Of a stretch of 64,000 bases of DNA, positions 163 through 47,673 are shown piece by piece (the first letter of the stretch is position 1; each line of letters opens with the position of its first letter). The notes beneath the pieces were generated by a model. That model saw only the letters and a list, made by a program, of their open reading frames with translations, was not told the DNA's origin and did no database searches. The position numbers and the translations under genes are program-made. Origin of the DNA: Burkholderiales bacterium (lineage in GTDB: Bacteria; Pseudomonadota; Gammaproteobacteria; Burkholderiales; Ga0077523); assembly GCA_022843925.1 (NCBI GenBank), contig JALHMS010000010.1:1-64000 (forward strand). Direction: 5' to 3'.

Positions 163-780
163 TCATTCGAGCTCGCCGGCACCGTAGACGATCATCGAGA
201 CCAGTCGGATCGGAACCTCGAGCAGGCGCTCGGGACCGTGCGGGATGTCGCCGCGGAAAGTCAGCGAATCGCCGGGTTCCAGCAGGTAGGTGTGACGACC
301 ATGGCGGTACTCGATGCGCCCCTGCAGGAGGTGGATGAACTCGGTGCCCGGGTGTTCGAAGCTCGGAAACACTTCCGTCTCGTCGTTCATGGTCACGAGG
401 AAGGGCTCGAAGCTGCGGCGCGGCCCTTTGTCGTACGCGAGCAGGTTGTAGGTGTAGCCGCGCTGGGTGCCGCCGCGGACGACCTCCATGCCCTCGTCGC
501 TGCGTACGAGGCGCGCACCGCCTGCCGGAAGATCGTAGGCACGGAAGAGATCCCCGACGGGAACGCCGAGCGCGCGGGCCACGCGCTCGAGCGTGTCGAG
601 GCTCATGGCCGCCTGGCCGTTCTCTATCTTGGAAAGCATGCCCTGGCTGATGCCGGCCTGGGCGGCCACTTCGCCGATGGTGAGGTGGTTCTTGTAGCGA
701 TAGGCGCGGATCGTGTTGCCGAGATGCCGCTCCATCGAGCGCTCGCCGTTGCCACCGGGCTTGCGCTGATCGACACTCAC
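163..780 (-). CDS. XRE-family transcriptional regulator with C-terminal cupin domain
   Basis: The protein has 205 residues when started at GTG 780. This start gives the N-terminus VSVDQRKPGGNGERSMERHLG, typical of the family; a longer frame to 852 adds unrelated residues. Residues about 20-75 form a helix-turn-helix (AAQAGISQGMLSKIENG) and residues about 125-200 form a cupin barrel with the HPGTEF / LEPGDSLTF / DIPHG pattern. Proteins of this architecture usually repress or activate nearby catabolic operons, sensing a small metabolite in the cupin. It sits between mgsC (115-base gap) and purU, in the same direction, so it is the likely regulator of the N-methylglutamate cluster. The ligand cannot be read from sequence. 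Confidence 0.88.
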   Translation of the reverse strand: MSVDQRKPGGNGERSMERHLGNTIRAYRYKNHLTIGEVAAQAGISQGMLSKIENGQAAMSLDTLERVARALGVPVGDLFRAYDLPAGGARLVRSDEGMEVVRGGTQRGYTYNLLAYDKGPRRSFEPFLVTMNDETEVFPSFEHPGTEFIHLLQGRIEYRHGRHTYLLEPGDSLTFRGDIPHGPERLLEVPIRLVSMIVYGAGELE

Positions 781-895: not shown

Positions 896-2257
896 TCAGA
901 GGTGGCCCACGCCGGGGATCCAGTTCGTTCCGGCGAGCGGCAGCTTCGCCATCGCTGCCGCCTCGATCGTGAGCGCGACGAGATCCTCCCGCTCCAGATG
1001 GTGCACGTTCGACTTGCCGCACGCGCGGGCCACGGTCGTGAGTTCCATGGTCATCGTCTTGAAGTAGTTCTTCAGATGGCGCGCGGCCATCGTCGGATCG
1101 AGGCGCAGCTCCAGCTCGGCATCCTGCGTCGTGATGCCGACGGGACACTTACCCGTGTGACAGTGATGGCAGAAGCCGGGGGCGGTGCCGATGGCGGCGT
1201 AGTCCGCGGTCGCATCATGGTGTGCGCCACCGCCGAACCACGAGCTGCCGTTGCAGCCCATGGCCATCAACGCGCCCTGCCCGATCGACACGGCGTCTGC
1301 GCCCATGGCGAGCGCCTTGGCCACATCGGCACCGGTGCGGATGCCCCCGGAGACGATGAGCTGCACCTTGCCGCGCATGTCCATCTCTTCAAGCGCCTCG
1401 ACGGCCTGGCGCAGCGCTGCGAGCGTCGGGATACCCACGTGCTCGATGAACACCGTCTGCGTCGCGGCGGTACCGCCCTGCATGCCGTCGACCACGACGA
1501 CGTCGGCGCCGGAGTGCACCGCAAGCTTCACGTCGTTGTAGGTCCGCGTGGCACCGACCTTCACGTAGACCGGCTTCTCCCAGTCGGTGATCTCGCGCAG
1601 TTCCTCGATCTTGATCGTCAGGTCGTCGGGGCCGGTCCAGTCCGGATGCCTGCACGCCGAGCGCTGGTCGATGCCTTCCGGCAGCGTGCGCATCCTCGCG
1701 ACGCGGGGATTCACCTTCTGGCCGAGCAGCATGCCGCCGCCACCGGGCTTGGCGCCCTGTCCGATCACCACCTCGATGGCGTCCGCGCTGCGGAGATCAT
1801 CGGGATTGAATCCGTAACGAGAAGGCAGGCACTGGTACACGAGCGTCTTCGAGGAACGGCGCTCCTCCTGCGTCATGCCGCCGTCGCCGGTGGTCGTCGA
1901 CGTGCCGAGTTCCGTGGCAGCGCGTCCCAGGGACTCCTTCACGCGCGCCGACAGCGATCCGAAACTCATGCCCGCGAACGTGATCGGGATGTCGAGGACG
2001 ATCGGCTTCTTCGCGTAGCGCGTGCCGAGCACCGTCTTCGTCGTGCACTTCTCGCGATAGCCCTCCAGCGGATACCGTGTGGCCGAGCCCGCGAGAAACA
2101 CGAGGTCGTCGAAACTGGGCAGGGCGCGCTTCGCACCGAGGCCGCGGATCTCGTAGAGACCGTGGGCTGCCGCGCCGCGGATGTAGTCGAGGACCTTGCG
2201 GTCGTAGCCTGCGCTCTCCTCGCGGGAGAGAGGACGGTCGGGATGGGATGCGCTCAT
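896..2257 (-). CDS. mgsC: N-methylglutamate synthase subunit C (FMN-binding glutamate synthase domain)
   Basis: The 453-residue protein resembles the FMN-binding central domain of the large glutamate synthase subunit (GltB). A (beta/alpha)8 barrel is followed by the iron-sulfur segment FCHHCHTGKCPVG near the C-terminus, equivalent to the cysteine cluster of GltB. The start chosen is ATG 2257 (MSASHPDRPLSREESAGYD); the same frame runs on to 3148, but that part overlaps mgsA and mgsB out of frame. In the N-methylglutamate pathway this subunit forms N-methylglutamate from glutamate and methylamine or gamma-glutamylmethylamide with MgsA and MgsB. Directly upstream is mgsB, 29 bases away. Split GltB-like proteins (GlxD) exist in other pathways; the flanking mgd and gmaS genes favour MgsC. 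Confidence 0.87.
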   Translation of the reverse strand: MSASHPDRPLSREESAGYDRKVLDYIRGAAAHGLYEIRGLGAKRALPSFDDLVFLAGSATRYPLEGYREKCTTKTVLGTRYAKKPIVLDIPITFAGMSFGSLSARVKESLGRAATELGTSTTTGDGGMTQEERRSSKTLVYQCLPSRYGFNPDDLRSADAIEVVIGQGAKPGGGGMLLGQKVNPRVARMRTLPEGIDQRSACRHPDWTGPDDLTIKIEELREITDWEKPVYVKVGATRTYNDVKLAVHSGADVVVVDGMQGGTAATQTVFIEHVGIPTLAALRQAVEALEEMDMRGKVQLIVSGGIRTGADVAKALAMGADAVSIGQGALMAMGCNGSSWFGGGAHHDATADYAAIGTAPGFCHHCHTGKCPVGITTQDAELELRLDPTMAARHLKNYFKTMTMELTTVARACGKSNVHHLEREDLVALTIEAAAMAKLPLAGTNWIPGVGHL

Positions 2258-2286: not shown

Positions 2287-3006
2287 TCAGTATTCCTGGT
2301 CCGCGTCGGCGTTCCAGTGATAGAGGCTGCGGGCCGAGGCCACGCGCTTGAACTCGGAAGGGGCGTACGGGAATCCGGCGCGGCCGAGCAGTTCGGCGAC
2401 GGCCGCGAGATCGACGGCAGTCATCGGTTCCTCGCGCGCGTCGGCGCCCAGCGACTTGATGCGGCCGCGCACGTAGATCACCGCTTCGTAGAGCGAATCG
2501 CCCAGGGCGTCGCCCGCGTCGCCGCACACGACGAGCCGGCCGGCCTGCGCCATGAACGCCGAGTAGTTGCCGATGCTGCCGCCCACCACGATGTCGATGC
2601 CCTTCATCGAGATGCCGCAACGGAGACTCGCGTCGCCCTCGATGATGAGCGTGCCGCCGTGCCCCGTGGCGCCCGCGGCTTCCGAAGCGAAGCCCTTCAC
2701 GCGGACGGTGCCCGACATCATGTTCTCGGCGACACCCCAGCCCACGTTGCCGTGGACGGTGACGTTCGCGTGCTTGTTCATCCCCGCGAGGTAGTACCCG
2801 CCGTGGCCGAGGACCTCGACGTCCACCGGATGGTCGATGCCCGCAGCGATCGCGTGACGGCCGCCGGGATTCTCGACGTCGACGCGCGTCACGCCGCTGC
2901 CGGGCAGCTCGCGGTGCAGGAAGTGGTTCAGGTCGCGCACGGTCGCGTGCGCGAGATCGAAGCGGCGCGTTGCGACGGCGGCGCGGTCGGCGGTCACACT
3001 TTCCAC
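2287..3006 (-). CDS. mgsB: N-methylglutamate synthase subunit B (GXGXG domain)
   Basis: The 239-residue protein matches the C-terminal GXGXG beta-helix domain of GltB. Repeated glycine turns are visible, for example HGNVGWGVAENMMSG, ATGHGGTLIIEGDA and VVGGSIGNYSAFMAQAG. It is expected to be a structural partner joining the amidotransferase subunit (MgsA) and the synthase subunit (MgsC). The GTG start at 3006 overlaps the 3' end of mgsA by 13 bases. It is preferred over the GTG at 2997 because a strong GAGGAG ribosome site lies 8 bases upstream of 3006. Order and spacing indicate one transcript with mgsA and mgsC. Confidence 0.87.
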   Translation of the reverse strand: MESVTADRAAVATRRFDLAHATVRDLNHFLHRELPGSGVTRVDVENPGGRHAIAAGIDHPVDVEVLGHGGYYLAGMNKHANVTVHGNVGWGVAENMMSGTVRVKGFASEAAGATGHGGTLIIEGDASLRCGISMKGIDIVVGGSIGNYSAFMAQAGRLVVCGDAGDALGDSLYEAVIYVRGRIKSLGADAREEPMTAVDLAAVAELLGRAGFPYAPSEFKRVASARSLYHWNADADQEY

Positions 3007-3890
3007 GAATAGATCTCCTCGGGCATGGGCTCGAACAGCTTCGCGTGATCGATGCCGGGCAGATGCGCCAGGGCACGGAACTCGGAGGCCACGGCCACGT
3101 AGTCGTCGGTCTCCGCCACGATGGCGGGCTTGCAGGCGAAGGCATCACGCACCAGCGCGAGCTTGTCGCCGGTGCCGATCAGGAAGGTGTAGAAGCCGTC
3201 GAGTTCCTCGAAGCCCTTCTGCAGGGCGGTCTCGAGATCGTCGCCCTCGCGCATGCGCCATTCGAGGTAGCGGCAGGCGGCCTCGGTGTCGTTGTCCGTC
3301 TCGAAACGGATGCCGCGATGCTCCAGCTTGCGGCGGATCATGTAGGGGTTCGAGATCGTCCCGTTGTGCACGAGGCAGAAATCCTCGCCCGCGGTGAACG
3401 GGTGGGCGCGATCGGGCGTCACGGCGGACTCCGTCGCCATCCGCGTGTGACCGACCAGGTGCGTGCCCGTCAGCGACGAGAAATCGTAGCGGTCGGCCAC
3501 GGCCGCCGGATGCCCGATGTCCTTGTAGATGTCCATCGCCCGGCCCGCTGCCAGCATGTGGAGCTGCGGGAAGGTCGCGGCGAGCCATGGCTTCACCCGC
3601 GCGGCGGACTCGTCGCATTCGAGCACCGCGTGATTGCCGCAGATGTCGATCGACGCATGGGTGCCGAAATGCCGGATGAACGCCGCCTCGAAACCCGCCC
3701 AGTCGTAGCTCCACGAGGGGGCGTACAGGCTGAACTTCCGCCGATCGGCGCCGATCGGCCCGGTGAAGACGGCGAGGCCGGCGGACTCCGGGCCGCGCGC
3801 GGCCATCTCCACCAACATCGGCACCATCATCCGCCCGAGCGACTCACGCAACTCGGGCTTCTTCACGAGAAGTCCCACGATTCCACACAT
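2994..3890 (-). CDS. mgsA: N-methylglutamate synthase subunit A (class II glutamine amidotransferase)
   Basis: The 298-residue protein starts MCGIVGLLV, so Cys2 would be the N-terminal nucleophile of an Ntn-type class II glutamine amidotransferase after methionine removal. Conserved amidotransferase segments follow: RGPESAG, HTRMATES, HPFTAGEDFCLVHNGTISN and a tail similar to the GltB amidotransferase domain. In the N-methylglutamate pathway it probably handles the amide side of gamma-glutamylmethylamide or glutamine and passes the amine to MgsC. It lies 41 bases after gmaS and overlaps mgsB. A free-standing GltB-like amidotransferase could serve other synthases; the cluster decides the name. 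Confidence 0.87.
   Translation of the reverse strand: MCGIVGLLVKKPELRESLGRMMVPMLVEMAARGPESAGLAVFTGPIGADRRKFSLYAPSWSYDWAGFEAAFIRHFGTHASIDICGNHAVLECDESAARVKPWLAATFPQLHMLAAGRAMDIYKDIGHPAAVADRYDFSSLTGTHLVGHTRMATESAVTPDRAHPFTAGEDFCLVHNGTISNPYMIRRKLEHRGIRFETDNDTEAACRYLEWRMREGDDLETALQKGFEELDGFYTFLIGTGDKLALVRDAFACKPAIVAETDDYVAVASEFRALAHLPGIDHAKLFEPMPEEIYSWKV
3015..3020 (-). promoter_or_regulatory. Ribosome binding site that decides the mgsB start
   Basis: The minus strand reads GAGGAG here, 8 bases before the GTG at 3006. This places mgsB initiation inside the end of mgsA and argues against the alternative GTG at 2997, which would be 17 bases from the site. Confidence 0.7.
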
Positions 3891-3931: not shown

Positions 3932-5266
3932 TCAGAAGAACTCCAGGTACCGCTCCACTTCCCACGCGGACACGTGCCGCTGGTACTCGATCCATTCCAT
4001 GCGCTTCAGCCGGATGAACTCGGCCGCGAGGTCCTTGCCCACAGCGTCGACGATCACCGGATCGGCCTCGAACTCGTTCAGTGCCTCTCCGAGGTTCTGC
4101 GGCAACACACCGATGCCGGCCTTCGCGAGCTGATCGGGCGACCACTCGTAGAGGTTCGTGTTGTTCGGCTCGCCGGGATCCAGTTCGCGCGCGACACCGT
4201 CCATGCCCGCCGCCAGGATCGCGATCGTGGCGAGGTACGGATTCACGGCGCCGTCGGGCAGACGCATCTCGAGACGCCCGTAGGGCACGCGGACCATGCA
4301 CGTCCGGTTGTTGTTGCCGTACGTGATGTAAGCCGGCGCCCAGGTGGCGCCCGACAGGGCACGACCCACGACGAGGCGCTTGTACGAGTTGACGGTCGGG
4401 GCGCACAGCGCGGTGAGGCCGCGCGCATGGGCGAGCAGACCGCCGAGGAAGTGATAGCCCATCTTCGAGAGGCCGAGCCCGCGCGGATCGGAGGCGTCGT
4501 GGAACAGGTTCTTCGACGTCGCACTGCCGATGGAGAGATGGAAATGCGTCCCCGTGCCGGTGCGGTTCGAGAAGGGCTTCGGCATGAACGTGGCGACGAG
4601 CCCCAGCTTGTGGGCGATCTCGGAGGCCGCCATGCGGACGAAGATCAGCCGGTCGGCCGACTTCATCGCGTCGCCGAAGGTGTAGTTCACCTCGAACTGG
4701 CCGTTCGCGTCCTCGTGGTCGATCTGGTACACGTCGATGCCGACCGCGCGTGTCGACTGCGTGAGCTGATCGAGGAACTCGGACTGCCGCGCCAGGCCCT
4801 TGTAGTCGTAGCAGGGCTTCTCGAGCGTGTCGGTATCGTCGCCGGGCACGATGCGCCCATCGGGGCCGCGCTTCAGCAACATGAACTCGGGTTCGATCCC
4901 GGTGAAGAGCGTCATCCCCTTCGCGGCGAGCGCATCGAGCTAGCTCTTCAGCGCAGTGCGGCAGTCGAACGCGTACGGCTTGCCGTTCACGTGACCCCAG
5001 GTGCACATGCGGGCGTAGCCAGGCATCCACGGAATGGCCGTCAGCGTGTCGAGATCGCCGACCGCCATGTAATCGGGGCCGTGCGGGCCCATGCCGAAGC
5101 CCCACAGGGCGAAGCCGGCAAAGCCCGCACCGTCGGTCAGCACCATCTCGAGGTGCTCCACCGGCACGGCCTTGGCCTTGGCGGCGCCGTGGATGTCGAC
5201 GAACTGGGCAAGGATGTAGCGTATCCCGTGCTTCTCGAAGAACTGCTTCGCCTCTGCTGGCGTCAT
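3932..5266 (-). pseudogene. gmaS: Gamma-glutamylmethylamide synthetase with an in-frame amber stop at codon 109
   Basis: The reading frame from ATG 5266 to the stop at 3932 would encode 444 residues of a glutamine-synthetase-family enzyme, full length for GmaS. GmaS joins methylamine to glutamate using ATP, the first step of the N-methylglutamate pathway. N-terminal residues ([20 protein letters not shown]) form the beta-grasp domain. The catalytic domain shows [24 protein letters not shown] and TGTHFHLS. Codon 109 is TAG (4942-4940) between ALKS and [11 protein letters not shown] at this place would give Gln, so one C-to-T transition explains it. No frame shift accompanies it. Restart at ATG 4915 would give 327 residues lacking the N-terminal domain that completes the active site between subunits, so that product is unlikely to work. 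The ATG overlaps the mgdD stop by 4 bases. Real nonsense mutation, readthrough and base error cannot be told apart from sequence alone. Confidence 0.85.
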
Positions 5267-5961
5267 GGCCTCCCTCCTTGCGTACCTGCAACTGGTTGCG
5301 AGATATCCCCGTGAAGCACGCGGACGCCCATCGGCCCGCCACCATGTTCGGCAGCGATGCTCGTGAGCGTCTCCCATAGATACGGGCCCGAGGTGCCATC
5401 GCACCACAGGCGCCAGCAGGGCCGCCCCTGCACATCCCGACGCAGCACCGTCACGCCGACCCCCACCATCGTGGTGAGGGTGACGATGCGCGCCTCCGGC
5501 GGGTCGAGCGCGAACGGGACAGCGCAGGTCTCGGCGAAGAGATCCGGCGCGTTGGCGCCGCAGATGTCGATCGCGCAGTCCTGACGGGGCACCGGATACA
5601 CGCCGGGGGCCGTGGTCCGCAGCGCGGCGGCGAGACGCGCCACGGGACCGCCGGCCCAGCCGTCCTCGATCAGGAACTCGGTACGCGCGAGCCGCGCGAC
5701 GAGTCCGCCTTCGGGGAGCGGGACCCAGCGGTTGAAGCCCTGGGGGACGGGAATTTCCTGCGCTTCGAGCCACCGGACGGCGCCGGGGCCCTTGAGGCCG
5801 GTGCGCACGAGGGACGAGACATCGGTGAGCGCAAGTGTGTCGACGTTGGCGGCATTCTCGGCGCGCAGTCGCAACGCGACGCGCATGCCGGCGTGCTCGC
5901 CCCACTCCGGCGAGTGCGCCTCGAGAGCGGTGAAGATCGGGCTGGTGCGCAGGGCGGCCAT
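5263..5961 (-). CDS. mgdD: N-methylglutamate dehydrogenase subunit D (sarcosine oxidase gamma-like)
   Basis: The 232-residue protein resembles the gamma subunit (SoxG) of heterotetrameric sarcosine oxidase, a small GcvT-like subunit. The start at ATG 5961 gives [20 protein letters not shown]; the frame continues to 6096 but that part overlaps mgdC out of frame. The segment DIAKSL is not present here, while [19 protein letters not shown] and the C-terminal [20 protein letters not shown] look family-typical. It follows mgdC after 4 bases and shares ATGA with gmaS. Gamma subunits diverge quickly, so identity rests partly on order B-D-A-G. Confidence 0.83.
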
Positions 5962-5965
5962 GGCG

Positions 5966-8866
5966 TCAGTCCGGGAGCTTCTGCCGGTCGCCGGCAGGAT
6001 CGTAGAAGGGAAGCGGCACGACCCGCGCCGCGGCGTAGGCGTTGTCGACGCGGATCGGCAGCGCCGTGCCTTCCGCCGTGATGTCGGGGGCGACAAGCGC
6101 GAGGCCGACGTGATGACCGAGCGCTTCGCTGAAGCCGATGCTCGTGACGCGCCCCTTGATGGCGCCGTCGATGATGACGAGGTGGCATTCCTTCGGTACC
6201 ACGGAGGCGCCGGGTTCCAGCGCGAACCCGACGAGCTTCTGCCGCGGCCCGCGCTTCTTCAGGATGGCGAGGCTGCGCTGACCCACGAAGAAGGGCTTGT
6301 CCATCTTCACCGCCCATTCAAGCGCGGCCTCGTCGGGCGTCGTGAGTCCGTCGGTGTCCTGACCCACGATGATGTGTCCCTTCTCGAGCCGCAGCATGCG
6401 CTGGGCCTCGACGCCGAACGGGCGGATGCCCTCGGCGCGCCCGGCTTCCATAAGGGCGTCCCACACGTGCAGCGCGTACTCGGCGGGCACGTGGATCTCG
6501 TAGCCGGTCTCGCCCACGAACCCCACGCGCATCAGGCGCACCGGCGCGCCGGCCACCTCCGTCTCGCGAAGCCCAAGGTACGGAAACGCGGCGTGCGTGA
6601 GATCGACACTGGTGAGGCGTCCGAGCACCGCGCGCGAATGCGGGCCCGCGAGGTTGAGCGCGGCGAAGGCACCGGTCGCGTTCACGATGCCGATCTCCAT
6701 GTTCCATTCGGCGTTCAGCCGCTGCAGTTCGCGGTAGACGGTCGCCGAGCCCGTCGTGGTCGTCGTGAAGTAGAAGTGCTCGTCTGAGAGGCGCGCGATC
6801 ACCCCGTCGTCGATGACGACGCCGGACTCGTCGACCATCACGCCGTAGCGCGTCATGCCGGGCTTCAGCCCCGCGAACTTGCCGACGTACACGCGCTCGA
6901 GGAACTTCGCCGCGTCGGGCCCGCGCAGCTCGAGCTTGCCCAGCGTGCCCACATCGATGAGACCGACGCCCGAGCGCACGGCGCGGACCTCGGCGCGGAT
7001 GCAGGCCTCGCGCGATTCGCCCGCGACTTCGTAGTACTCCGGACGCAGCCAGATGCCCGCCTGCATCCACTTCGCGCCAAGCGCGACGTGCCGCGGGTGG
7101 AAGGGCGTCTCGCGGTGCGGATGGAAACCGCGCCCGGCGAGGTGCGACAGCGGCACGGGATGGAAGAACGGTCGCGCGGTCGTGGTGCCCACCTCACCGG
7201 GCTGCATCCCGCGCAGCTTCGCGAGGATGCGGATCGCGTTCATGTTCGAGTGCTTGCCTTGCGACGGCCCCATGCCGACGGTGGAGTAGCGCTTCAGCAA
7301 CTCGATGTTGTCGAAGCCTTCCTGCACGGCGTTCGCGAAGTCCTTCGCCTGCAGGTCCTCGTCGAAGTCGACGAAATCCTTGCCGGACGGATGTGCGACG
7401 AACGGCCACGGGTGCGACGGCGCTGCGGTCTCGGCCGGCACGGCGGGCATCGGGACGTCAACAGTGCGTCCGGCGTGACGCGCGGCTTCGAGTCCGGCGC
7501 GCGTGCCGTCGAGGAAACGCGCCTCGATGTCATGGACGCCGTTCACGCGACCCGCCGCGAAGATGCCATCGCCGAGCTTTTCGGGGACGAACTGCTGCGT
7601 GACCGCATCGAAGCGCATCCGCGTGCCCGCCTGATAGAGCATGGCCGCCGCGGGGGCCCATCCGACGCTCATCACGAGTCCGTCGCACGGAATGCGGGTG
7701 ACCTTGCCGGTGACGGCGTTGCCGGCCGCGTCGAGCGGGCACACCAACGCGGCTGCCAGGCGGTCGCCCTCGGCCACGGCTTCGTAGACGCCATGACCTG
7801 CGAGGACGCGCACTCCGCGGTCCCGGACCGCAGCGCCGAACGGGCCGGGCTCGCCGGCGGGCCGCAGGTCCACGACGGCCGCGACGGTGACGCCGGCCGC
7901 GAGCAGATCGAGCACGGCGCGATAGCCGTCCGCGTTGCCGACGAGCGCCACGGCGGTGTTCATGGGCTTCACGGCGTGGCGATAGACCAGCCGCTGCGCG
8001 GCGGACGCGAGCATCACGCCGGGAAGATCGTTGCCGCGGAACACCGCGGGCTGCTCGAACACGCCACCCGCCACGACGACGGCGCGGGCGCGCAGCTTGG
8101 TCATGCGGGTCGCGTCGATGAGCGGCACCCAGTGATCGGTGTACCACCCGGCCGCAAGCGTGGCGGGTCGCAACGACACGTTCGGCATCGCGCGAAGCTC
8201 CGCCTCCAAGGCGCGCAGCTGGTCGAGCGTCGCCGCGGCGCCGCCCCGCTGATACACGAGGCTGCCACCGATGCGGGCGTTCTCGTCGACGACGACAACC
8301 TGCGCGCCGGTGCGGGCGGCGGCGAGCGCGGCGGAAAGCCCCGACGGACCGGCACCGACCACGAGAACGTCGGCGTAGTCGTAACGCTTCGGGGTGCGGA
8401 TGTGCGGCGTGGAGAAGTCGAGCCGACCGAGCCCGGTGAGCCGTCGGAAGACGCGCTCCCAGAAGGCCGCCAGCGCCTTCGGACGATGGAACGCCTTGTA
8501 GTAGAAGCCGACCGGGAGGAAACGGCCGAGCGAATTCAGGATGCGGAGGCGATCGGACGCCACGCCGCCTTCCGTGTTGATCGCGTCGAGCACCATGCCG
8601 TCGACGAGCGCTTCCACGTCGGCGCGCGTGTTGAGTCTCTGCCCCCACTGCACCATCGCATTGATGTCGTGGTTCGCGGCGGAGAGCAGGCCGCGCGGCC
8701 GGTGGTACTTGAAGCTGCGGCCGAGGGTGCGTACGCCGGCAGCCCACAGCGCGCTGGCCGGGGTGTCACCCGCAAAGCCGGTGAAGTCGCGGCCCTCGAA
8801 CCGGAAGCCGAGGGACTTCGTGCGGTCGATCCATTCGCCATCGACCGGCGGCAGGCGCGTCGTCAT
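5966..8866 (-). CDS. mgdC: N-methylglutamate dehydrogenase subunit C (sarcosine oxidase alpha-like)
   Basis: The 966-residue protein has the length and domain order of the alpha subunit of heterotetrameric sarcosine oxidase. An N-terminal 2Fe-2S-fold-like region (about 15-100) comes first. A dinucleotide-binding domain with VVGAGPSGLSAA at about 169-180 follows, and the C-terminal part from about 590 is a GcvT-like folate-binding domain (RMLRLEKGHIIVGQDTDG; MDKPFFVGQRSL). In the Mgd complex it takes the methyl-derived carbon as formaldehyde or 5,10-methylene-tetrahydrofolate while N-methylglutamate is oxidised back to glutamate. ATG 8866 shares 4 bases with the mgdB stop. Sarcosine oxidase (soxA) is the alternative; the adjacent gmaS-mgsABC genes favour the N-methylglutamate role. 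Confidence 0.88.
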   Translation of the reverse strand: MTTRLPPVDGEWIDRTKSLGFRFEGRDFTGFAGDTPASALWAAGVRTLGRSFKYHRPRGLLSAANHDINAMVQWGQRLNTRADVEALVDGMVLDAINTEGGVASDRLRILNSLGRFLPVGFYYKAFHRPKALAAFWERVFRRLTGLGRLDFSTPHIRTPKRYDYADVLVVGAGPSGLSAALAAARTGAQVVVVDENARIGGSLVYQRGGAAATLDQLRALEAELRAMPNVSLRPATLAAGWYTDHWVPLIDATRMTKLRARAVVVAGGVFEQPAVFRGNDLPGVMLASAAQRLVYRHAVKPMNTAVALVGNADGYRAVLDLLAAGVTVAAVVDLRPAGEPGPFGAAVRDRGVRVLAGHGVYEAVAEGDRLAAALVCPLDAAGNAVTGKVTRIPCDGLVMSVGWAPAAAMLYQAGTRMRFDAVTQQFVPEKLGDGIFAAGRVNGVHDIEARFLDGTRAGLEAARHAGRTVDVPMPAVPAETAAPSHPWPFVAHPSGKDFVDFDEDLQAKDFANAVQEGFDNIELLKRYSTVGMGPSQGKHSNMNAIRILAKLRGMQPGEVGTTTARPFFHPVPLSHLAGRGFHPHRETPFHPRHVALGAKWMQAGIWLRPEYYEVAGESREACIRAEVRAVRSGVGLIDVGTLGKLELRGPDAAKFLERVYVGKFAGLKPGMTRYGVMVDESGVVIDDGVIARLSDEHFYFTTTTTGSATVYRELQRLNAEWNMEIGIVNATGAFAALNLAGPHSRAVLGRLTSVDLTHAAFPYLGLRETEVAGAPVRLMRVGFVGETGYEIHVPAEYALHVWDALMEAGRAEGIRPFGVEAQRMLRLEKGHIIVGQDTDGLTTPDEAALEWAVKMDKPFFVGQRSLAILKKRGPRQKLVGFALEPGASVVPKECHLVIIDGAIKGRVTSIGFSEALGHHVGLALVAPDITAEGTALPIRVDNAYAAARVVPLPFYDPAGDRQKLPD

Positions 8867-9126
8867 CGCGCGGACTCCTCGCCGGGCATCCAGGTGCGCA
8901 GGACGCGGTCGGCCGTGACGTCGCGCTCGGCGTGGAACCAGACGCCGCTCGGCAGGTGGTACCACCACTCGATCTTCACGCCGGGGATGCCGGAGCGGTT
9001 GAAGACGTGGTCCGCCCACTGGTCGTCCGTGCAGGTCGCAGGGTCGGGCATCGCGCGGACCTCGCCACCGTAGGCGAACTCGGACACGGGCCGCAAGCCG
9101 TTCACGGGGCAGCAGAGGAGCTTCAT
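8863..9126 (-). CDS. mgdB: N-methylglutamate dehydrogenase subunit B (sarcosine oxidase delta-like)
   Basis: The 87-residue protein matches the small delta subunit (SoxD) of heterotetrameric sarcosine oxidase. It begins MKLLCCPVNGLRPVSEFAYGG and carries the family signature VFNRSGIPGVKIEWWYHLPSG. The delta subunit binds zinc with a few Cys/His residues; C5, C6 and C32 are candidates. It starts 24 bases after mgdA and overlaps mgdC by ATGA, so the three are co-translated. Confidence 0.9.
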   Translation of the reverse strand: MKLLCCPVNGLRPVSEFAYGGEVRAMPDPATCTDDQWADHVFNRSGIPGVKIEWWYHLPSGVWFHAERDVTADRVLRTWMPGEESAR

Positions 9127-9150: not shown

Positions 9151-10392
9151 TCAGTGTCCGACACTGGCCGCCCCCTTCTCGCCGGTGAGCTCGTAGCGCG
9201 CGAACCGCGACAGGTTGAACGCGCCGATGAGATCGTGATCCCGGCCGGTGGCGACTGTGTGGGCCATGGTCATGCCGCACACCGGCGTTGCTTTGAAACC
9301 CCAGGTGCCCCACCCGGCGTCCAGGTAGAAGCCTTCGACCGGGGTCGTGCCCATCACGGGCGCGAAGTCGGGGGTCATGTCGGCCATCCCGGCCCACTGC
9401 CGGTTGACCTTTGCGTGCGAGAGGAACGGGAACATGTCGAGCATGTGGGCCGCGAGGCCCTCCACGAAATCGAGGCTGGATCGGGTGGAATGGAGTTCGT
9501 ACGGATCGAGCGAAGCCCCCATCACGAGTTCACCGCGGGCCGACTGGCTGACGTAGATGTGCAGGCTGCCGGACACGAGGATCGGATCGAGCCAGGGCTT
9601 CATGGGCTCGGTGACCATCGCCTGCAGCGGGTGTACGTAGATGGGGGTGCGCAGACCGACCATGTGGGTGATCCGCGGCGTGAAGCCGGCGACGGCGGAA
9701 AGCACCCGCGGCGTCGAGATGTATCCCTTGGACGTCTTCACGCCTTGGACGCGCCCGCCCACCACATCGATGCCCAGCACTTCGGTCTGCTGATGGATCT
9801 CGACACCCCGCTGATCCGCGCCGCGCCCGTAGCCCCACGCCACGGCGTCGTGCCGGGCGATGGCGCCGGGCGCGTGGTACAGCGCGCCGAGGATCGGGGC
9901 ATTGCCGCCGCAGGAGAGGTCGATCTGCGGGCAGGCGGCCTTCACGGCCTCGGGGCCGACCAGCTCGCTGTCGACGCCGAGATGCTTGTTGACCTCGGCG
10001 CGCCACCGCATCGTCCGCACGGCGGAATCGGTGTGCGCGAGCGTGAAGTGGCCGCGGGTCGAATAGAAGAGGTTCAGGTCGAAGTCGGTGGCGAGGTCCT
10101 GCCACAGGCGCACCGACTGGTCGTAGAACGCGACGCCCTCGGGCGTAAGGTAGTTCGACCGGATGATCGTGGTGTTCCGGCCGGTGTTGCCGCCGCCGAT
10201 GTACCCCTTCTCGAGCACCGCGACATTCCGCATGCCGTGGTCGCGGGCGAGGTAGTAGGCTGCGGCCAGGCCATGCCCGCCGGCACCGATGATCACTGCG
10301 TCGTAGCTGCCCTTAAGCCGTTCCGGCGTCCGGAACATGCGGGGTTCCGGATGCTTCGAGGAGAGCGCGAACCGCAACAGCTGAAAGGGCAC
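9151..10392 (-). CDS. mgdA: N-methylglutamate dehydrogenase subunit A (sarcosine oxidase beta-like)
   Basis: The 413-residue FAD-dependent oxidase/dehydrogenase subunit carries the dinucleotide motif VIIGAGGHGLAAAYYLA at about 33-49 and the DAO-family C-terminal pattern MADMTPDFAPVMG...GWGTWGFK. It corresponds to SoxB, which carries the catalytic flavin for amine oxidation. GTG 10392 is used as the start; GAGAGAA lies 7 bases upstream. It is the first gene of the long minus-strand operon mgdABCD-gmaS-mgsABC. The upstream region faces gshA. Sarcosine as substrate cannot be excluded by this protein alone. Confidence 0.87.
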   Translation of the reverse strand: MPFQLLRFALSSKHPEPRMFRTPERLKGSYDAVIIGAGGHGLAAAYYLARDHGMRNVAVLEKGYIGGGNTGRNTTIIRSNYLTPEGVAFYDQSVRLWQDLATDFDLNLFYSTRGHFTLAHTDSAVRTMRWRAEVNKHLGVDSELVGPEAVKAACPQIDLSCGGNAPILGALYHAPGAIARHDAVAWGYGRGADQRGVEIHQQTEVLGIDVVGGRVQGVKTSKGYISTPRVLSAVAGFTPRITHMVGLRTPIYVHPLQAMVTEPMKPWLDPILVSGSLHIYVSQSARGELVMGASLDPYELHSTRSSLDFVEGLAAHMLDMFPFLSHAKVNRQWAGMADMTPDFAPVMGTTPVEGFYLDAGWGTWGFKATPVCGMTMAHTVATGRDHDLIGAFNLSRFARYELTGEKGAASVGH

Positions 10393-10668: not shown

Positions 10669-11961
10669 ATGACCGTTCCGCATCTCACCACCGCACTCTC
10701 CGGCCCCCTTCTTTCGCTCGAGCGTCAGATCCTGGATGCGCAACCGACCATCGAGCATTGGCTGCGGACCAAATGGCAGGAGCACGCGGCGCCGTTCTAC
10801 GCCTCGGTCGATCTGCGCAATGCGGGCTTCAAGCTCGCCCCGGTGGATACGAACCTGTTCCCGGGCGGCTTCAACAACCTGGCACCCGAGTTCATGCCGC
10901 TGTGCGTGCAGGCGGTGATGGTGGCCGTCGAGAAGATCTGTCCCGACGCCCGCGGGATCCTGCTGGTCCCCGAGAACCACACCCGCAACACCTTCTATCT
11001 CCAGAACGTCGTGACGCTGCAGGCGATGCTCCGCCAGGCGGGCATGAAGGTGCGCATCGGGTCGCTGAACCCCGAGGTGACGGCGCCGACCACGCTGGAA
11101 CTCCCGAGCGGCGCGAAGCTCCTCGTGGAACCCATCGTTCGCAACGGACGGCGCGTCGGGCTGCCGGACTTCGATCCGTGCACCGTGCTGCTGAACAACG
11201 ACCTGTCGGCCGGCATTCCGGCGATCCTGCAGGGCATCGACCAGCCCATCCTCCCGCCGCTCCACGGCGGCTGGGCGACGCGGCTGAAGTCGAACCACTT
11301 CACGGCCTACGACGAGGTCGCCAGCGAGTTCGCGAAGCTGATCGACATCGACCCCTGGCTGATCAACCCGTACTTCGGCGTGTGCGGCGAGATCAACTTC
11401 CACGAGCGCACCGGCGAGGAATGTCTCGCGCGCTGGGTGGACGGCATCCTCGGCCAGATGCGCGAGAAATATCAGGAGTACGGCATCACGCAGGACCCCT
11501 TCGTGATCGTGAAGGCGGACGCCGGGACGTACGGCATGGGGATCATGTCCGTGAAGAGCGCGGACGAGGTCGTGAGCCTCAACCGCAAGCAGCGCAACAA
11601 GATGGCGGTGGTGAAGGAGGGCCTCGAGGTGAGCCACGTGATCGTGCAGGAAGGGGTGCCGACGTTCGAGAGCGTGAACGATGCCGTCGCCGAACCCGTC
11701 GTCTACATGATCGACCACTTCGTGGTGGGCGGCTTCTACCGCGTGCACACCGACCGCGGCATCGACGAGAACCTCAACGCCCCCGGCATGCACTTCGTCC
11801 CCCTCGCGTTCGAGTCGAGCTGCTCGCAGCCCGACCCCGACGGTCATCCCAACGCGACCCCCAACCGCTTCTACGCGTACGGGGTGGTGGCCCGGCTGGC
11901 GCTGCTGGCGGCTGCGCTCGAACTGGAGCGCACCGACCCCGCGGCGCTGGTCGCCGCGTGA
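10669..11961 (+). CDS. gshA: Glutamate-cysteine ligase, Acidithiobacillus type
   Basis: The 430-residue protein catalyses ATP-dependent joining of glutamate and cysteine, the first step of glutathione synthesis. It belongs to the proteobacterial family first described from Acidithiobacillus ferrooxidans, not to the E. coli GshA fold family. Recognisable segments include VDTNLFPGGFNNL, LLVPENHTRNTFY, LPPLHGGWATRLKS and KADAGTYGMGIMSV. The start is ATG 10669. gshB follows at once, with gshA's TGA lying 11 bases before its ATG. The pair supplies glutathione in the cytoplasm and faces a methylamine operon that releases one-carbon units. Confidence 0.92.
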   Translation: MTVPHLTTALSGPLLSLERQILDAQPTIEHWLRTKWQEHAAPFYASVDLRNAGFKLAPVDTNLFPGGFNNLAPEFMPLCVQAVMVAVEKICPDARGILLVPENHTRNTFYLQNVVTLQAMLRQAGMKVRIGSLNPEVTAPTTLELPSGAKLLVEPIVRNGRRVGLPDFDPCTVLLNNDLSAGIPAILQGIDQPILPPLHGGWATRLKSNHFTAYDEVASEFAKLIDIDPWLINPYFGVCGEINFHERTGEECLARWVDGILGQMREKYQEYGITQDPFVIVKADAGTYGMGIMSVKSADEVVSLNRKQRNKMAVVKEGLEVSHVIVQEGVPTFESVNDAVAEPVVYMIDHFVVGGFYRVHTDRGIDENLNAPGMHFVPLAFESSCSQPDPDGHPNATPNRFYAYGVVARLALLAAALELERTDPAALVAA

Positions 11962-37802: not shown

Positions 37803-39005
37803 CTACCGTACCGACTGATTGATCTCGATGATCGGCAGCAGCACGGCCAGGACGATCGCCAGCACCACCGCCCCCATCAGCAGCACGAGCGCGGGTTCCA
37901 GGAGGCCCGCAGCGGCCGTCGCGCGGCGCTCCACCTCGCGCGCCTGATCGCGGGCCGCGTGGCCCAGCATCCGCGGGAGGTCACCGGTGGCCTCGCCCAC
38001 TTCGATGAGGCGGACGAGGACCGGTGGAAACGCCCGCGTCTGCCCCAGTGCCCGTCCGAGACCCACGCCCTCGCGCACCTGATCGAGCGCACTGCGGACC
38101 GAGGCGCGCAGGATCGTGTTCGAGAGCGTCGCCTCCGCCCCGGCCAGTGCGCGCAGCATCGGCACACCGGCTTCGGCAAGCATCGCCAGGGTCGACGCGA
38201 AGCGCGCGGTGTCGATCCCGCGCAGCAGTCTTCCGAGCACAGGCAGCCGCAGCAGCGCGCCATCCCACGCGGCCCGCGGACCCGACCGCTTCAGAAGCGC
38301 CCGCAGGCCGAACCCGGCGGCGATCAGCATCGCCAGCATCGGCAGGCCCGCGACGCGCAACGCGCCCGACACCGCGAGCAGCGCCCGCGTCGGCCACGGC
38401 AGCACCTGCCGCGTGTGCTCGAACACCTGCACCACCTGCGGCACGACCGAGGTCATGAGGAACAGCACGATCACCACGGCGAGGCCCGTGACGATCGCGG
38501 GATACGTGGCCGCGGCGATCAACCGTCCGCGCAGCGCCTGGCGATCGTCGAGGTACTGCGCCAGCCGCTCCAGCACCTTCCCGAAATCGCCGGCCTCCTC
38601 GCCGGCGGCAACGGTGGCGCAATACACGCGGGGGAAGGCACGCGGATGGCGGGCGAGGGCATCCGCGAGCCGCTCCCCGGCCACGACGTCGGCCCGCACG
38701 GCGCGGAAGAGATCGCGCTGCCGCGGGTCCTCGGTCTGTTCCGCGAGCGTAGCCAGCGCGGCGTCCAGTGGAAGCCCCGCGGTGAGGAGGCTCGCGAGCT
38801 GACGCGTCGCCATGGCCAGCACGGACTCGGCCAGCGCAACGCCGCGCGCATGGGTCGACCGGGTGCCGTCGATCGCCTCGACGTGGATCGCCGCAAGTCC
38901 GCGCGTGCGCAGTTGCGCCCGGACGGCGCGGGCGGTGTCGGCATCGACCACACCCTTCTCGATGCGGCCGGAGTCGTGGGCGGCCTCGTAGCGGAACGTC
39001 GGCAT
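37803..39005 (-). CDS. gspF: Type II secretion inner-membrane platform protein
   Basis: The 400-residue protein has two GspF cytoplasmic domains and three transmembrane helices (for example IVTGLAVVIVLFLMTSVVPQVV and the C-terminal ALVLLMGAVVLAIVLAVLLPI). The conserved VAAGEEAGDFGKVLERLAQYL and LIEVGEATGDLPRML repeats mark the two halves. The start ATG 39005 gives MPTFRYEA. It is the last gene of the gsp run and begins 19 bases after gspE. Confidence 0.95.
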   Translation of the reverse strand: MPTFRYEAAHDSGRIEKGVVDADTARAVRAQLRTRGLAAIHVEAIDGTRSTHARGVALAESVLAMATRQLASLLTAGLPLDAALATLAEQTEDPRQRDLFRAVRADVVAGERLADALARHPRAFPRVYCATVAAGEEAGDFGKVLERLAQYLDDRQALRGRLIAAATYPAIVTGLAVVIVLFLMTSVVPQVVQVFEHTRQVLPWPTRALLAVSGALRVAGLPMLAMLIAAGFGLRALLKRSGPRAAWDGALLRLPVLGRLLRGIDTARFASTLAMLAEAGVPMLRALAGAEATLSNTILRASVRSALDQVREGVGLGRALGQTRAFPPVLVRLIEVGEATGDLPRMLGHAARDQAREVERRATAAAGLLEPALVLLMGAVVLAIVLAVLLPIIEINQSVR

Positions 39006-39024
39006 GGGTGCGGGGACCGGACGG

Positions 39025-40449
39025 TCAGTCCTCGCGGGTGACGCGGGCCAGCTCGGCGGCGGATGTCGCCCCTGCGACGACGAGACGCTCGCCGTCCTCG
39101 CGCAGCGTGCGGAAGCCGCGGGCGATCGCGAGGCCGCGCAGCACGTGCTCGCCCGAAGCCGCGTGGATCGCCTCGCGCAGCGGGTCGTCGACCTCCAGCA
39201 GTTCATAGATGCCGGTCCGGCCGCGATAGCCCGTGTCGCCGCACGCGGCGCAGCCCGCCGGCTGCCATCGCCCATGCGCGTCCTGCCGACGACATTCCGT
39301 GCACAGACAGCGCACGAGACGTTGCGCAAGCACGCCGAGCAGGGAGGACGACAGCAGGAAGGGCTCGATACCCATGTCGATGAGGCGCGTGACGGACGAG
39401 ACGGCATCGTTCGTGTGGAGCGTCGCCAGCACGAGATGCCCCGTGAGCGATGCCTGGACGGCGATCTGCGCGGTCTCCAGATCGCGGATCTCGCCGATCA
39501 TGATGACGTCCGGGTCCTGTCGGAGGATCGCGCGGAGCGCCCGCGCGAAGGTCATGTCGATGCGCGCGTTCACCTGGGTCTGGCCGACGCCGGGCAGGTC
39601 GTACTCGATGGGGTCCTCGACGGTCATCACGTTCGTCGTGGCCGCGTCGAGCTGCGACAGCAGCGCATACAGCGTGGTCGTCTTGCCGCTTCCCGTGGGG
39701 CCGGTCACGAGCACGATGCCGTGGCTCAGCCGCGCGAGCCGCTCCAGCGCGACGCGCGTGTCGGACGCCATGCCGAGCGCTTCGGGCGTGAGACGGCCGT
39801 GCTCCTTGTCGAGCAGCCGCAGCACGACGCGCTCGCCGTGACCCGCAGGCAGCGTCGACACCCGCACGTCGATGGGCCGGCCGCCGAGCCGCAGCATGAT
39901 CCGCCCGTCCTGCGGCAGGCGCTTCTCGGCGATGTCGAGGTCCGCCATGATCTTGATGCGCGAGACGAGCGCGGCGTGCAGGCCGCGGCCGGGATGCACG
40001 ATGTCGCGCAGCGTCCCGTCGACGCGGTAGCGCACGACGGAGTGCGACTCGTAGGGCTCCACGTGGATGTCCGACGCGCCCTCGCGGAGCGCCTGGGACA
40101 GCAGCGCGTTCAGCATGCGGATGACCGGCGCGTCGTCCCGGGCGTCGAGGAGGTCCTCGACTTCGGGAATGTCCTGCATCAGCCGCTGGAGGTCGGTCTC
40201 GCTCTCGACCTCGCCCACCACGGTCGCCGCCTGGTCCGTGCCGTTCAGATACGCGGCCCGGAGCGCGGTCTCGAAGCGTTCCTCCGAGACCAGCACCGGC
40301 TCCACCGCGGATTCCGTGCACCGGCGCACCTCGGCGATCGCGTGCACGGGCGTGCGATCGGTCACCCACAGCGTGACACGACCCGCGTCGCCACCGGCCG
40401 CGAGCACGCGATGCGTACGGGCGAAGCCGAAGGGCAGGCGCGGTGTCAT
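39025..40449 (-). CDS. gspE: Type II secretion ATPase
   Basis: The 474-residue ATPase drives pseudopilus assembly. It has Walker A GPTGSGKT at 250-257, Asp box and Walker-B-type PDVIMIGEIRDLETA, and a tetracysteine zinc motif (CLCTEC ... CAACG) in the C-terminal domain. ATG 40449 overlaps the gspD stop by four bases. The N1 domain is short compared with E. coli GspE. Confidence 0.96.
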   Translation of the reverse strand: MTPRLPFGFARTHRVLAAGGDAGRVTLWVTDRTPVHAIAEVRRCTESAVEPVLVSEERFETALRAAYLNGTDQAATVVGEVESETDLQRLMQDIPEVEDLLDARDDAPVIRMLNALLSQALREGASDIHVEPYESHSVVRYRVDGTLRDIVHPGRGLHAALVSRIKIMADLDIAEKRLPQDGRIMLRLGGRPIDVRVSTLPAGHGERVVLRLLDKEHGRLTPEALGMASDTRVALERLARLSHGIVLVTGPTGSGKTTTLYALLSQLDAATTNVMTVEDPIEYDLPGVGQTQVNARIDMTFARALRAILRQDPDVIMIGEIRDLETAQIAVQASLTGHLVLATLHTNDAVSSVTRLIDMGIEPFLLSSSLLGVLAQRLVRCLCTECRRQDAHGRWQPAGCAACGDTGYRGRTGIYELLEVDDPLREAIHAASGEHVLRGLAIARGFRTLREDGERLVVAGATSAAELARVTRED

Positions 40450-42473
40450 CGCGGCGCTGTCACCGGATTCGGTGCGGCCGGCACGGGCTTCGGATCCAGC
40501 GACGGTTGGAACTCCGGCAGCACCGCCCCTTCCAGGTCCGGCAGGGGGAAGCGCCTCTCGGTGGGCGTCGTCGCCCGCTGCTCCCGCTGCATGTAGTCGT
40601 AGCGGTCGACGGTGAGCACGCGGGTCTGCGCATCGTCGCGGATCACGTGCGGCCGCAGGAACAGCATGAGGTTGGTCTTCTGACGGCGGCGCGAGTCGTA
40701 GCGGAACAGGCTGCCGAGGAACGGGATGTCGCCGAGCCAGGGCACCTTCTGCGCGTTGCTGTCGAGCTGATCCCGCACGAGACCGCCCAGCACGACGATG
40801 TTGCCGTCGTCCACCACGACGTTCGTGTCGAGCGAGCGCTTGTTGGTGATGATCCCCGCCGGCGTGGAGATGTCCTGAACGCTCGACACTTCCTGGTAGA
40901 TGGTGAGCCTGACCGTGCCGCCCTCGCTGATCTGCGGCTTCACCTTGAGCGTGAGACCCACGTCGCGGCGCTCGATGGTCTGGAACGGATTCACCGTCGC
41001 GCCGGCCGAGGCCTGGTTCAGGAACTGGCCGGTGATCAACGGCACGTTCTGGCCGACGACGATCCTGGCCTCCTCGTTGTCGAGGGTGAGGATGTTCGGC
41101 GTCGAGAGGATGTTGCCCTTCACGTTGGTCTCGAGCGCCCGGGCGAGCACCGCCAGGTTCGTGATGGCGCCCAGCCCCGGCACGGTGACCTGCCCGCGCA
41201 CGATGCCGATGTTGAGACCTGGCCCCAGGCTCCCGAGGTTGCGGGCACCGCCCACGATGTTCTGCGTCGCCGTGCCGAAGTTCGTGCCGCCGGCCACGGC
41301 AGTGCCGGCACCGGCAGTGATCCGGTCGAGGCCCCCCAGCCACTGGATCCCGAACTCGGCCGCCTGGTCGCTCGTCACCTCGACGATCAGGCACTCGATG
41401 AACACCTGCGCCCGCCGCACGTCGAGCCGGTCGATCACGCCGCGCAGCGTGCGATAGGCGCTCTCGGAGCCCGTGATGACCAGCGAGTTCGACGCGTTGT
41501 CCGCGACGACCGTGAGCCCCTGCGCCTCTGCCGACGGCGCCCCGGCCGCGCCCGCCGGGCCCATCGCGCGCGCGGCGCCCCCTTCGGTCAGGCGGATGGT
41601 CGACAACGTCTTCGCGAGCACCGCCGCCTCGGCATTGCGCAGCGGCACGACGTACACGCCGCTGCCGCGCGACGACGGCTTGTCGAGCGTCGCGATGATC
41701 GACTTCGCGAGGCGGACCCGCGCGGCCGAACCCGCCTGCACGACGACGCTGTTCGTGAGCGGATCGGCCAGCACGATCACCTTCTGCTGCGGATCGGTGA
41801 CCGCGGTGCCGCCGTCAGTGAACCGACCGACCATCGCTGCGACGTCGGTGGCGATCGCGTGCTCCAGTCTCACGATCTCGACGTTCGGTGCCGGCGGCAC
41901 GTCGAGCGCGGCGATGACCCGCTCGATCCGGCGCAGGTTCTCGGCATAGTCGGTGACGACGATCGCGTTGGTGCCCGGGTACGTGTTCACCGGATTGCCG
42001 GCGGGCACGAGCGGTCGGACCACCGACAGCACGTTGGCGGCGGACTCGAACTGAAGCCGGAATACCTGCGTGAGCAACTGGTCGCCGCGGGCGCCGGCCG
42101 GGACGGTCGTGTTGCCCACCGCGCCGCCCTGGAACTTCGCATCGGCCTCGGGGACGACGCGCCAGACGCCGCCCGTGTCGACGATCGCGAAGCCCTGCAG
42201 GCGCAGCGCTGCGCTGAGGGCCGCGACCGCCTGGTCGTTGGTCATCGGCCGCTCGGACGACAGCGTGAGCGTGCCTTTCACGCGCGGGTCGACCACGAAG
42301 GTGCGCCCCGTGTAGTGACCCACCGCGCGCACCACGGCGTCGAGGTCGGCATTCGTGAAGCGCAGCGTCACCTTCTCCGGCGCCTTCCCGGCCGGATGCG
42401 CCGCCGGCAGTCCCGCCAGGGCCGCACACAAAGCCCAGCGCACGATCCCGCCGCCCCGCCTCTTCGTCACCAC
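40446..42473 (-). CDS. gspD: Type II secretion outer-membrane secretin
   Basis: The 675-residue protein has a signal peptide (about 1-28), N0 to N3 periplasmic domains (VTLRFTNADLDAVVRAVGHYTG and repeated LDVP-AQVFIEC motifs) and the C-terminal secretin domain (VGLTLKVKPQISEGGTVRLTIYQEVS; LGGLVRDQLD). The start is GTG 42473 with GGGAGG 4 bases upstream, inside the gspN 3' end. It forms the outer-membrane pore for folded substrates. Confidence 0.96.
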   Translation of the reverse strand: MVTKRRGGGIVRWALCAALAGLPAAHPAGKAPEKVTLRFTNADLDAVVRAVGHYTGRTFVVDPRVKGTLTLSSERPMTNDQAVAALSAALRLQGFAIVDTGGVWRVVPEADAKFQGGAVGNTTVPAGARGDQLLTQVFRLQFESAANVLSVVRPLVPAGNPVNTYPGTNAIVVTDYAENLRRIERVIAALDVPPAPNVEIVRLEHAIATDVAAMVGRFTDGGTAVTDPQQKVIVLADPLTNSVVVQAGSAARVRLAKSIIATLDKPSSRGSGVYVVPLRNAEAAVLAKTLSTIRLTEGGAARAMGPAGAAGAPSAEAQGLTVVADNASNSLVITGSESAYRTLRGVIDRLDVRRAQVFIECLIVEVTSDQAAEFGIQWLGGLDRITAGAGTAVAGGTNFGTATQNIVGGARNLGSLGPGLNIGIVRGQVTVPGLGAITNLAVLARALETNVKGNILSTPNILTLDNEEARIVVGQNVPLITGQFLNQASAGATVNPFQTIERRDVGLTLKVKPQISEGGTVRLTIYQEVSSVQDISTPAGIITNKRSLDTNVVVDDGNIVVLGGLVRDQLDSNAQKVPWLGDIPFLGSLFRYDSRRRQKTNLMLFLRPHVIRDDAQTRVLTVDRYDYMQREQRATTPTERRFPLPDLEGAVLPEFQPSLDPKPVPAAPNPVTAPR

Positions 42474-43216
42474 GCGACCTCCCAGTCGAGAACCGCCTTG
42501 TCACCGGCGCGGCGACCCAGGACGCTCAGCAGCGCCCCCAGACCCGGCCGGAACTCGGGTGCGGCGTCGGCCGTGCCCGTGAACTTCAGCTTCCGCGCAT
42601 CCATCGCTCCCCGGCCGGTCAACTGCAGCGGACCGCGCAGCGTCGCGACCGACAACTCGGCGCTGCCGCCGTTGCCCTCGAGCGCGAGCCGGAAGCTGCC
42701 GAGCGGCACGACCGGGGACAGTGCGGAGCGCGCGTCGGCCCAGGCCACGTCGACGCGGCCCGCGAGATCCCCGCCGGCGAATCGGAGCGCCGACCAAGAC
42801 ACATCGAGATCCCCGCCGGGACGAACGGTGTTGAACGGAGCCCCGAGCGCCGCAAGCACGGCCGCAGGCAACCGTACCCGGCCCGGCGCCACCGAGAACC
42901 CGGAGCGCGTCCACGCCACCGGCACCGGATTGTCCATGGCCGGATGCTCCAGTGAAAGGGCGATGCGACCCGCGAGCCACTCGTCCGGCATGACCCGCCA
43001 TGCGAGGCGTCCCGGCAGCAGGCGGATGACGCCATGGTCCTCGATGCCCACGGATGCCGAGCCGCGCCAGAACGTCCCCTCCGCGTGGACGAGACGCCAC
43101 GCGCCGTGCCCGGTGATCCATCCGTGCATCCAGCGCGCCGGCGCGGCGACGACGAGCACCGCGAGGACCGTCGCCGCGATGAGGATCGTCACGATTGCCG
43201 GGCGTCCCACGGGCAT
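42467..43216 (-). CDS. gspN: Type II secretion protein N
   Basis: The 249-residue protein has one N-terminal transmembrane segment (about 8-28) and a periplasmic beta-rich region typical of GspN (RLLPGRLAWRVMPDEWLAG; RGAMDARKLKFTGTADA). It is a poorly understood accessory of some type II systems. Its ATG at 43216 overlaps the gspM stop by one base and it overlaps the gspD start by seven. Confidence 0.85.
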   Translation of the reverse strand: MPVGRPAIVTILIAATVLAVLVVAAPARWMHGWITGHGAWRLVHAEGTFWRGSASVGIEDHGVIRLLPGRLAWRVMPDEWLAGRIALSLEHPAMDNPVPVAWTRSGFSVAPGRVRLPAAVLAALGAPFNTVRPGGDLDVSWSALRFAGGDLAGRVDVAWADARSALSPVVPLGSFRLALEGNGGSAELSVATLRGPLQLTGRGAMDARKLKFTGTADAAPEFRPGLGALLSVLGRRAGDKAVLDWEVAW

Positions 43217-46353: not shown

Positions 46354-46721
46354 CGCACCGGCTCCAGGGGCAGCAGGCCCGCGAGTTCGGCCAGGGCGAA
46401 GTCGGGCGCGCCCTCGAGGTGCACGCGCACCTCGACCCGGCGGAAGGCCGCGTTGGGCGTGGTCTTCACTTCCTGGCGACAGACCAGCGCGAGCGCACCC
46501 TGGGGACAGGGTTCGCTCGTGACGCCGGCGGCGGGAAAGCTGCGGGTCGCATGCAGCCACGCAAGACGATTCCGTGCGGAGAGATCCGCGAGGAGGCGTT
46601 GGCGCAATTCGACACCACTGCCCGCCATCACGCCCATGGCGCGGGTCGAGGCCAGCAGCGCGATGGCGACGATCGCAAGCGCCACGAGAACCTCGACGAG
46701 CGTGAAGCCGCGGGCGCTCAT
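46350..46721 (-). CDS. gspI: Type II secretion minor pseudopilin I
   Basis: The 123-residue protein starts MSARGFTLVEVLVALAIVA, a prepilin peptidase site directly at the N-terminus. Length and the ATRSFPAAG / CRQEV region agree with GspI. It shares four bases with gspH and with gspJ. Confidence 0.93.
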   Translation of the reverse strand: MSARGFTLVEVLVALAIVAIALLASTRAMGVMAGSGVELRQRLLADLSARNRLAWLHATRSFPAAGVTSEPCPQGALALVCRQEVKTTPNAAFRRVEVRVHLEGAPDFALAELAGLLPLEPVR

Positions 46722-47588: not shown

Positions 47589-47673
47589 GGGTGTCCTTGT
47601 GCGGGTGGGTTGCCGTGGTCGGTGGCGCTGACGCACACTCGTGGTCCGTCGTCGCCGATCGCTTGCCGCCTGC

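Follow-up and report, generated by a model that had tools for sequence, protein, structure and literature searches.

The locus considered here carries gmaS, a gene predicted to encode gamma-glutamylmethylamide synthetase, with an amber codon inside its reading frame, which raises the question of whether the function has recently been lost, the assembled sequence is wrong, or the codon is read in some unusual way. On the evidence set out below, gmaS has probably lost its function through a recent and ordinary mutation; a sequencing error is the less likely alternative, and a novel reading of the genetic code is not favoured. The window, by which we mean the whole stretch of 64,000 nucleotides that was analysed, comes from a genome (G000) of 5.57 Mb in 64 contigs that is 99.15% complete. 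On the minus strand the gmaS frame runs from an ATG at 5266 to a TGA at 3932, spans 444 codons and contains no frameshift, and the TAG read at 4942-4940 is codon 109, with LKS before it and LDALAAKGM after it, in agreement with the initial annotation. A six-frame search of the organism's own genome returned the gene with one TAG inside and no other stop, which confirmed that a point change without insertion or deletion is involved. With the stop entered as X, the 444-residue reading scored 636.4 bits against the TIGR03105 profile (cut-off 469.6) over model positions 2-435 of 435, and since this is above the cut-off we regard the frame as a gene and not as a chance opening. The nearest solved structure was 9qur ('Glutamate--methylamine ligase', E 2e-209), and the gene in the closest relative (G006) was collinear and gapless with it at 96.6% identity. 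In its full-length score and its best solved relative the gene thus resembles the GmaS proteins of TIGR03105; it differs from them in that the frame, which should be uninterrupted, is broken by one TAG at codon 109. A literature search found no paper on a premature stop codon in gmaS together with methylamine.

The genetic context agrees with the family assignment, with Sox-family subunits encoded upstream of gmaS and an amidotransferase, an FwdC-like protein and a glutamate-synthase-like protein encoded downstream, all of them scoring below the model cut-offs (Table 1). The names mgdABCD and mgsABC were assigned by order and family. The order gmaS-mgsA-mgsB is the same as that given for Methyloversatilis universalis in the consulted excerpt of PMC5023235. 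When compared with the closest relative, the remaining genes of the operon were intact, as the initial annotation had also stated. The divergent neighbour of the operon (window 10669-11961) encodes a glutamate--cysteine ligase of the TIGR02049 (gshA_ferroox) type (644.8 bits), and the next ORF after it resembles, by eye, a glutathione synthetase.

Table 1. Features of the gmaS locus, with window coordinates and the basis of each assignment.
Feature	Coordinates	Strand	Basis
gmaS, interrupted (type III glutamine-synthetase family, gamma-glutamylmethylamide synthetase)	3932..5266	-	TIGR03105; solved relative 9qur
In-frame TAG, codon 109 of gmaS	4940..4942	-	Sequence reading and six-frame genome search
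Codons 1-108, piece from normal start: N-terminal domain and first half of helix 102-115	4943..5266	-	Translation; AlphaFold2 model
Catalytic-domain ORF (codons 118-444), open from Met118; translated only upon re-start	3932..4915	-	TIGR03105, 488.6 bits
Helix-turn-helix regulator, intact	163..780	-	Matches below cut-off
mgsC-like (glutamate-synthase large-subunit domain), intact	896..2257	-	Matches below cut-off; name inferred
mgsB-like (FwdC-like), intact	2287..3006	-	Matches below cut-off; name inferred
mgsA-like (glutamine amidotransferase domain), intact	2994..3890	-	Family matches below cut-offs; name inferred by order
mgdD-like, stop overlaps gmaS start	5263..5961	-	Position only; no NCBIfam match; collinear with closest relative
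mgdC-like (SoxA family and aminomethyltransferase domain), intact	5966..8866	-	Below TIGR01372 cut-off
mgdB-like (SoxD family), intact	8863..9126	-	Below TIGR01374 cut-off
mgdA-like (SoxB family), intact	9151..10392	-	Below TIGR01373 cut-off

In all 11 other genomes of the genus gmaS is uninterrupted (76-97% protein identity), and codon 109 specifies Gln in six of them and Ala in five, being CAA in the closest relative and CAG in the next two. Codon 109 was then compared across 87 distinct orthologous sequences including the interrupted gene (at least 60% identity, de-duplicated, drawn from searches of the own genome, the genus and wider genome sets, the wider ones contributing the best 80 of 420 matches), where CAG was found 68 times, CAA 12 times, an Ala codon six times and TAG once. 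With CAG or CAA in 80 of the 86 other sequences and an Ala codon in six, Gln is the ancestral state, and the Gln codon that had been anticipated in related strains was indeed present there. Broader surveys with TIGR03105 (E ≤ 1e-100, up to four candidates scored per genome) gave 81 matches in 58 of 399 genomes of the order, 50 in 40 of 369 genomes of the class and 55 in 50 of 398 genomes of the phylum. Pooling of the three surveys left 176 distinct matches by hand count, and two of these contained any stop, namely gmaS of the window and a paralogue in another genome of the genus, G011; both stops were TAG.

The G011 stop sits in the paralogue rather than in gmaS itself, and that genome is a 64% complete draft. 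Within the stretch G011:C733:14000-17500 the ORF, starting at about contig position 15063, contains a single in-frame TAG just before LMLGIEPEF, which a gapless by-eye alignment on GIEPEF places about ten codons beyond the TAG of gmaS. At the corresponding site the four paralogues that were read (from G000, G006, G007 and G009) have an Arg or Lys codon; those of G002 and G003 and two of G005 were left out of this reading, and among these the G003 stretch and one of the G005 stretches represent a further type. By our own arithmetic the chance of two stops falling this close in a 444-codon protein is about 1 in 20, and a TIGR03105 gene in G011 with a TAG near the same place is something that a purely chance event in gmaS would not predict.

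Amber is an ordinary stop in this genome. The release factor 1 gene prfA is intact, and among 37 genes of the window, hand-picked for clear conservation in the closest relative, 30 end in TGA, six in TAG and one in TAA, with five of the six TAG ends being TAG in the relative as well. A reassignment of the amber codon was rejected in view of the intact release factor 1 and of TAG as the end of six of the 37 compared genes. The locus shares with the known cases of amber recoding (pyrrolysine, TAG-to-Gln codes and suppressor tRNAs) an in-frame TAG in a conserved gene, and differs from them in that release factor 1 is present, TAG is a normal terminator, no CUA tRNA was found among the 37 tRNAs named and the site is not conserved. 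The amber-suppressor tRNA that had been raised at the outset was looked for among the 37 tRNAs that exceeded the cut-off in an RF00005 search, in which one further, weak match fell below it. ARAGORN assigned the anticodon CUA to none of the 37; this set is itself incomplete, being without Trp, Ile, Thr-GGT and Leu-TAA, so that the absence of a suppressor is weak evidence. Two of the 37, tRNA-Gly and tRNA-Tyr, are located at the extreme end of contig C27 (1-600), which suggests that some gaps in the tRNA set are assembly breaks; some of the missing tRNAs, e.g., Thr-GGT and Trp, were perhaps lost through a break at a repeated gene.

The initial annotation had envisaged a synthetase deprived of its first 108 residues. 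Translation from the normal start instead yields residues 1-108 and then stops, and the catalytic part without these residues requires that ribosomes re-start, the first in-frame start being Met118. The native start of gmaS has a strong Shine-Dalgarno match (-11.9 kcal/mol), whereas Met118 has a Shine-Dalgarno-like AAGGGG that touches the ATG (spacing 0, -6.7 kcal/mol), a poor site at which re-start looks weak. The Pfam Gln-synt_C match begins at residue 101, and the Pfam beta-grasp model scored 22.5 against the N-terminal piece, below its cut-off of 33.4. In an AlphaFold2 model (mean pLDDT 86.1) based on an alignment of 33 sequences that we selected, residue 109 lies in the middle of helix 102-115, and therefore the stop would break the first helix of the catalytic domain. 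On the same model, a split at a clean linker was rejected in view of the position of residue 109 within this helix. According to the consulted part of PMC7948447, RhGmaS is a dodecamer whose methylamine site includes Lys30' from the adjacent subunit. By a by-eye match on the alignment to 9qur, the counterpart of this residue is K32 of gmaS, which is invariant in all 33 aligned sequences and is located in the N-terminal piece, and hence absent from the catalytic piece. Given the predicted break of the helix and the lack of K32 in the catalytic piece, loss of activity is expected. The truncated ORF alone scored 488.6 bits against TIGR03105, i.e., above the cut-off of 469.6, which calls for caution when the presence of gmaS is used as a marker of methylamine use, since a truncated ORF too passes the family cut-off in a profile search.

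The age of the stop was approached through the constraint on either side of it. In its first 37.8 kb the window is 92% identical at the DNA level to the closest relative, and the dN/dS of gmaS between them was 0.033 before the stop (codons 1-108) and 0.052 after it (codons 110-444). Changes were polarised with three outgroups. Downstream of the stop, the branch leading to the interrupted gene shows amino-acid changes at codons 248 and 378 and, besides these two, 19 silent changes, the stop codon being excluded, and the branch of the relative shows seven amino-acid and 28 silent changes, with one amino-acid and 11 silent changes assigned to neither. Under a rough binomial model that rests on these two non-synonymous changes, finding at most two amino-acid changes among 21 has P = 0.009 if the part beyond the stop had been unconstrained for 10% of the branch and P = 0.04 if for 5%. 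Judged from these substitutions, the constraint on gmaS beyond the stop matches that in the relative, and there is no decay and no relaxed constraint yet. Therefore, either the stop is young, or it is absent from the cells as a consensus error, or full-length protein is still being made.

We think it likely that the stop is young and that gmaS carries an ordinary, recent nonsense allele; as a mechanism the interruption is ordinary. A recent mutation would have turned the Gln codon 109 into TAG in the sampled lineage, and ribosomes starting at the normal ATG would stop after 108 residues, with release factor 1 reading the TAG. The N-terminal piece thus released would be inactive, the catalytic part would be made little or not at all, and there may be polarity on mgsABC. 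On this account gmaS would be a young loss-of-function allele within an otherwise intact N-methylglutamate operon. It has in common with young nonsense pseudogenes and polymorphic null alleles of bacteria, as a class, that there is one nonsense codon and no other damage, that purifying selection acted until recently and that the relatives are uninterrupted, and it departs from that class in no respect that we observed.

The TAG might also be a wrong consensus base, or a minority allele picked up in a mixed metagenomic assembly, with most cells carrying an intact gmaS. The lack of decay in gmaS fits such an error equally well, and the eleven named records of greatest similarity all carry the label of a metagenome-assembled genome (most of them that of Betaproteobacteria or Burkholderiales), so the source of the window may be metagenome-assembled too. 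Against this, the comparison of the 37 genes with the closest relative, covering 14,915 codons, contained no frameshift and no internal stop other than that of gmaS: 36 genes were without an internal stop, and all 37 aligned in one piece across 98.5% or more of their length (two with in-frame gaps), which speaks for a consensus of good quality. Moreover, counted per gene, genuine nonsense alleles outnumber consensus substitutions that create a stop. A general damage of the consensus was also rejected, as the stop-flagged comparison rows for 51384-52439, 60613-61248 and 81445-82413 reflect an ORF of the relative that is extended upstream, the stops falling at residues 15, 18 and 22; the other stop-flagged rows were taken for antisense or shadow ORFs. 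We consider an assembly-level origin possible but unlikely, and infer that the TAG base is real in the cells.

It is very improbable, in our assessment, that gmaS now works in two pieces, a 108-residue N-terminal chain and a catalytic chain of 327 residues that arises by coupled re-start at Met118, the two joining in the oligomer. The cut does fall near the border of the N- and C-terminal domains as marked by the start of Gln-synt_C, the methylamine site of RhGmaS does take a residue from the adjacent subunit (PMC7948447, in the excerpt consulted), and a Shine-Dalgarno-like motif does precede Met118; the TAG ten codons further on in the G011 paralogue is a weak lead in the same direction. However, the stop falls amid a predicted helix, the motif ahead of Met118 has no spacing and falls short of the native one in strength, all 11 other members of the genus have the gene in one piece, and residues 109-117 would belong to neither chain. 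Even less probable is that an amber-suppressor tRNA or leaky termination allows codon 109 to be read through to an extent that supplies enough full-length enzyme. Purifying selection does continue on either side of the TAG, and the tRNA set found is incomplete, but no CUA anticodon was seen among the 37 tRNAs, release factor 1 is intact, no other internal TAG occurs in the 37 compared genes, and several conserved neighbours naturally end in TAG and would be extended by a strong suppressor. Least credible of all is the broader idea, built on gmaS of the window and the G011 paralogue, that the genus tolerates type III glutamine-synthetase-like ligases as two chains that reassemble in the oligomer.

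Taken as a whole, a recent nonsense allele that is tolerated in an otherwise intact N-methylglutamate operon is thus what we hold to be the probable explanation, and the genome offers several ways in which the loss might be borne. The initial annotation had concluded that the stop cuts the pathway at its entry step. In the consulted excerpt of PMC5023235, GMAS is indeed called the predicted first enzyme, but its exact role is said to be not well defined, and N-methylglutamate synthase is said to be able to make N-methylglutamate from methylamine itself. In the same genome as the window, an intact second TIGR03105 gene, 46% identical to gmaS, was found on contig C3, where it adjoins a Rieske-type gene according to our reading of the sequence. 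Contig C4 (7611-10768) carries a mau-like cluster, in which the light chain scored 212 bits (cut-off 196.85) and MauD was over its cut-off, and in which the heavy chain was under its cut-off (278.8 versus 454.45); because of this low heavy-chain score, the substrate of the amine dehydrogenase may be another amine. Of the genus's 12 genomes, nine have such a light chain that exceeds the cut-off. A second, more distant cluster resembling tryptophan-tryptophylquinone amine dehydrogenases lies on contig C23 (4455-6342, with a light chain at C23:15988-16488), and its heavy and light chains are below cut-off.

Given the paralogue, the mau-like cluster, the ill-defined role of GMAS and the direct N-methylglutamate synthase route, the statement that the pathway is cut at its entry is too strong. 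The loss of gmaS is probably tolerated by way of other methylamine routes, and methylamine may be handled by the methylamine-dehydrogenase-like cluster, by the paralogous ligase, or by N-methylglutamate synthase directly. If the allele is real, the locus would show a lineage in the act of losing the ATP-dependent ligase of its N-methylglutamate route, with an amine-dehydrogenase-like route still in place.

Elsewhere in the window, a 13.5-kb stretch (37848-51342) was unmatched in the collinear 80 kb of the closest relative, and a comparison of this stretch with plasmid records gave no match. By eye, the ORFs in it resemble a type II secretion (gsp) cluster, accompanied by one for a protein of 1074 residues that has PKD-like repeats and CxxCH motifs.
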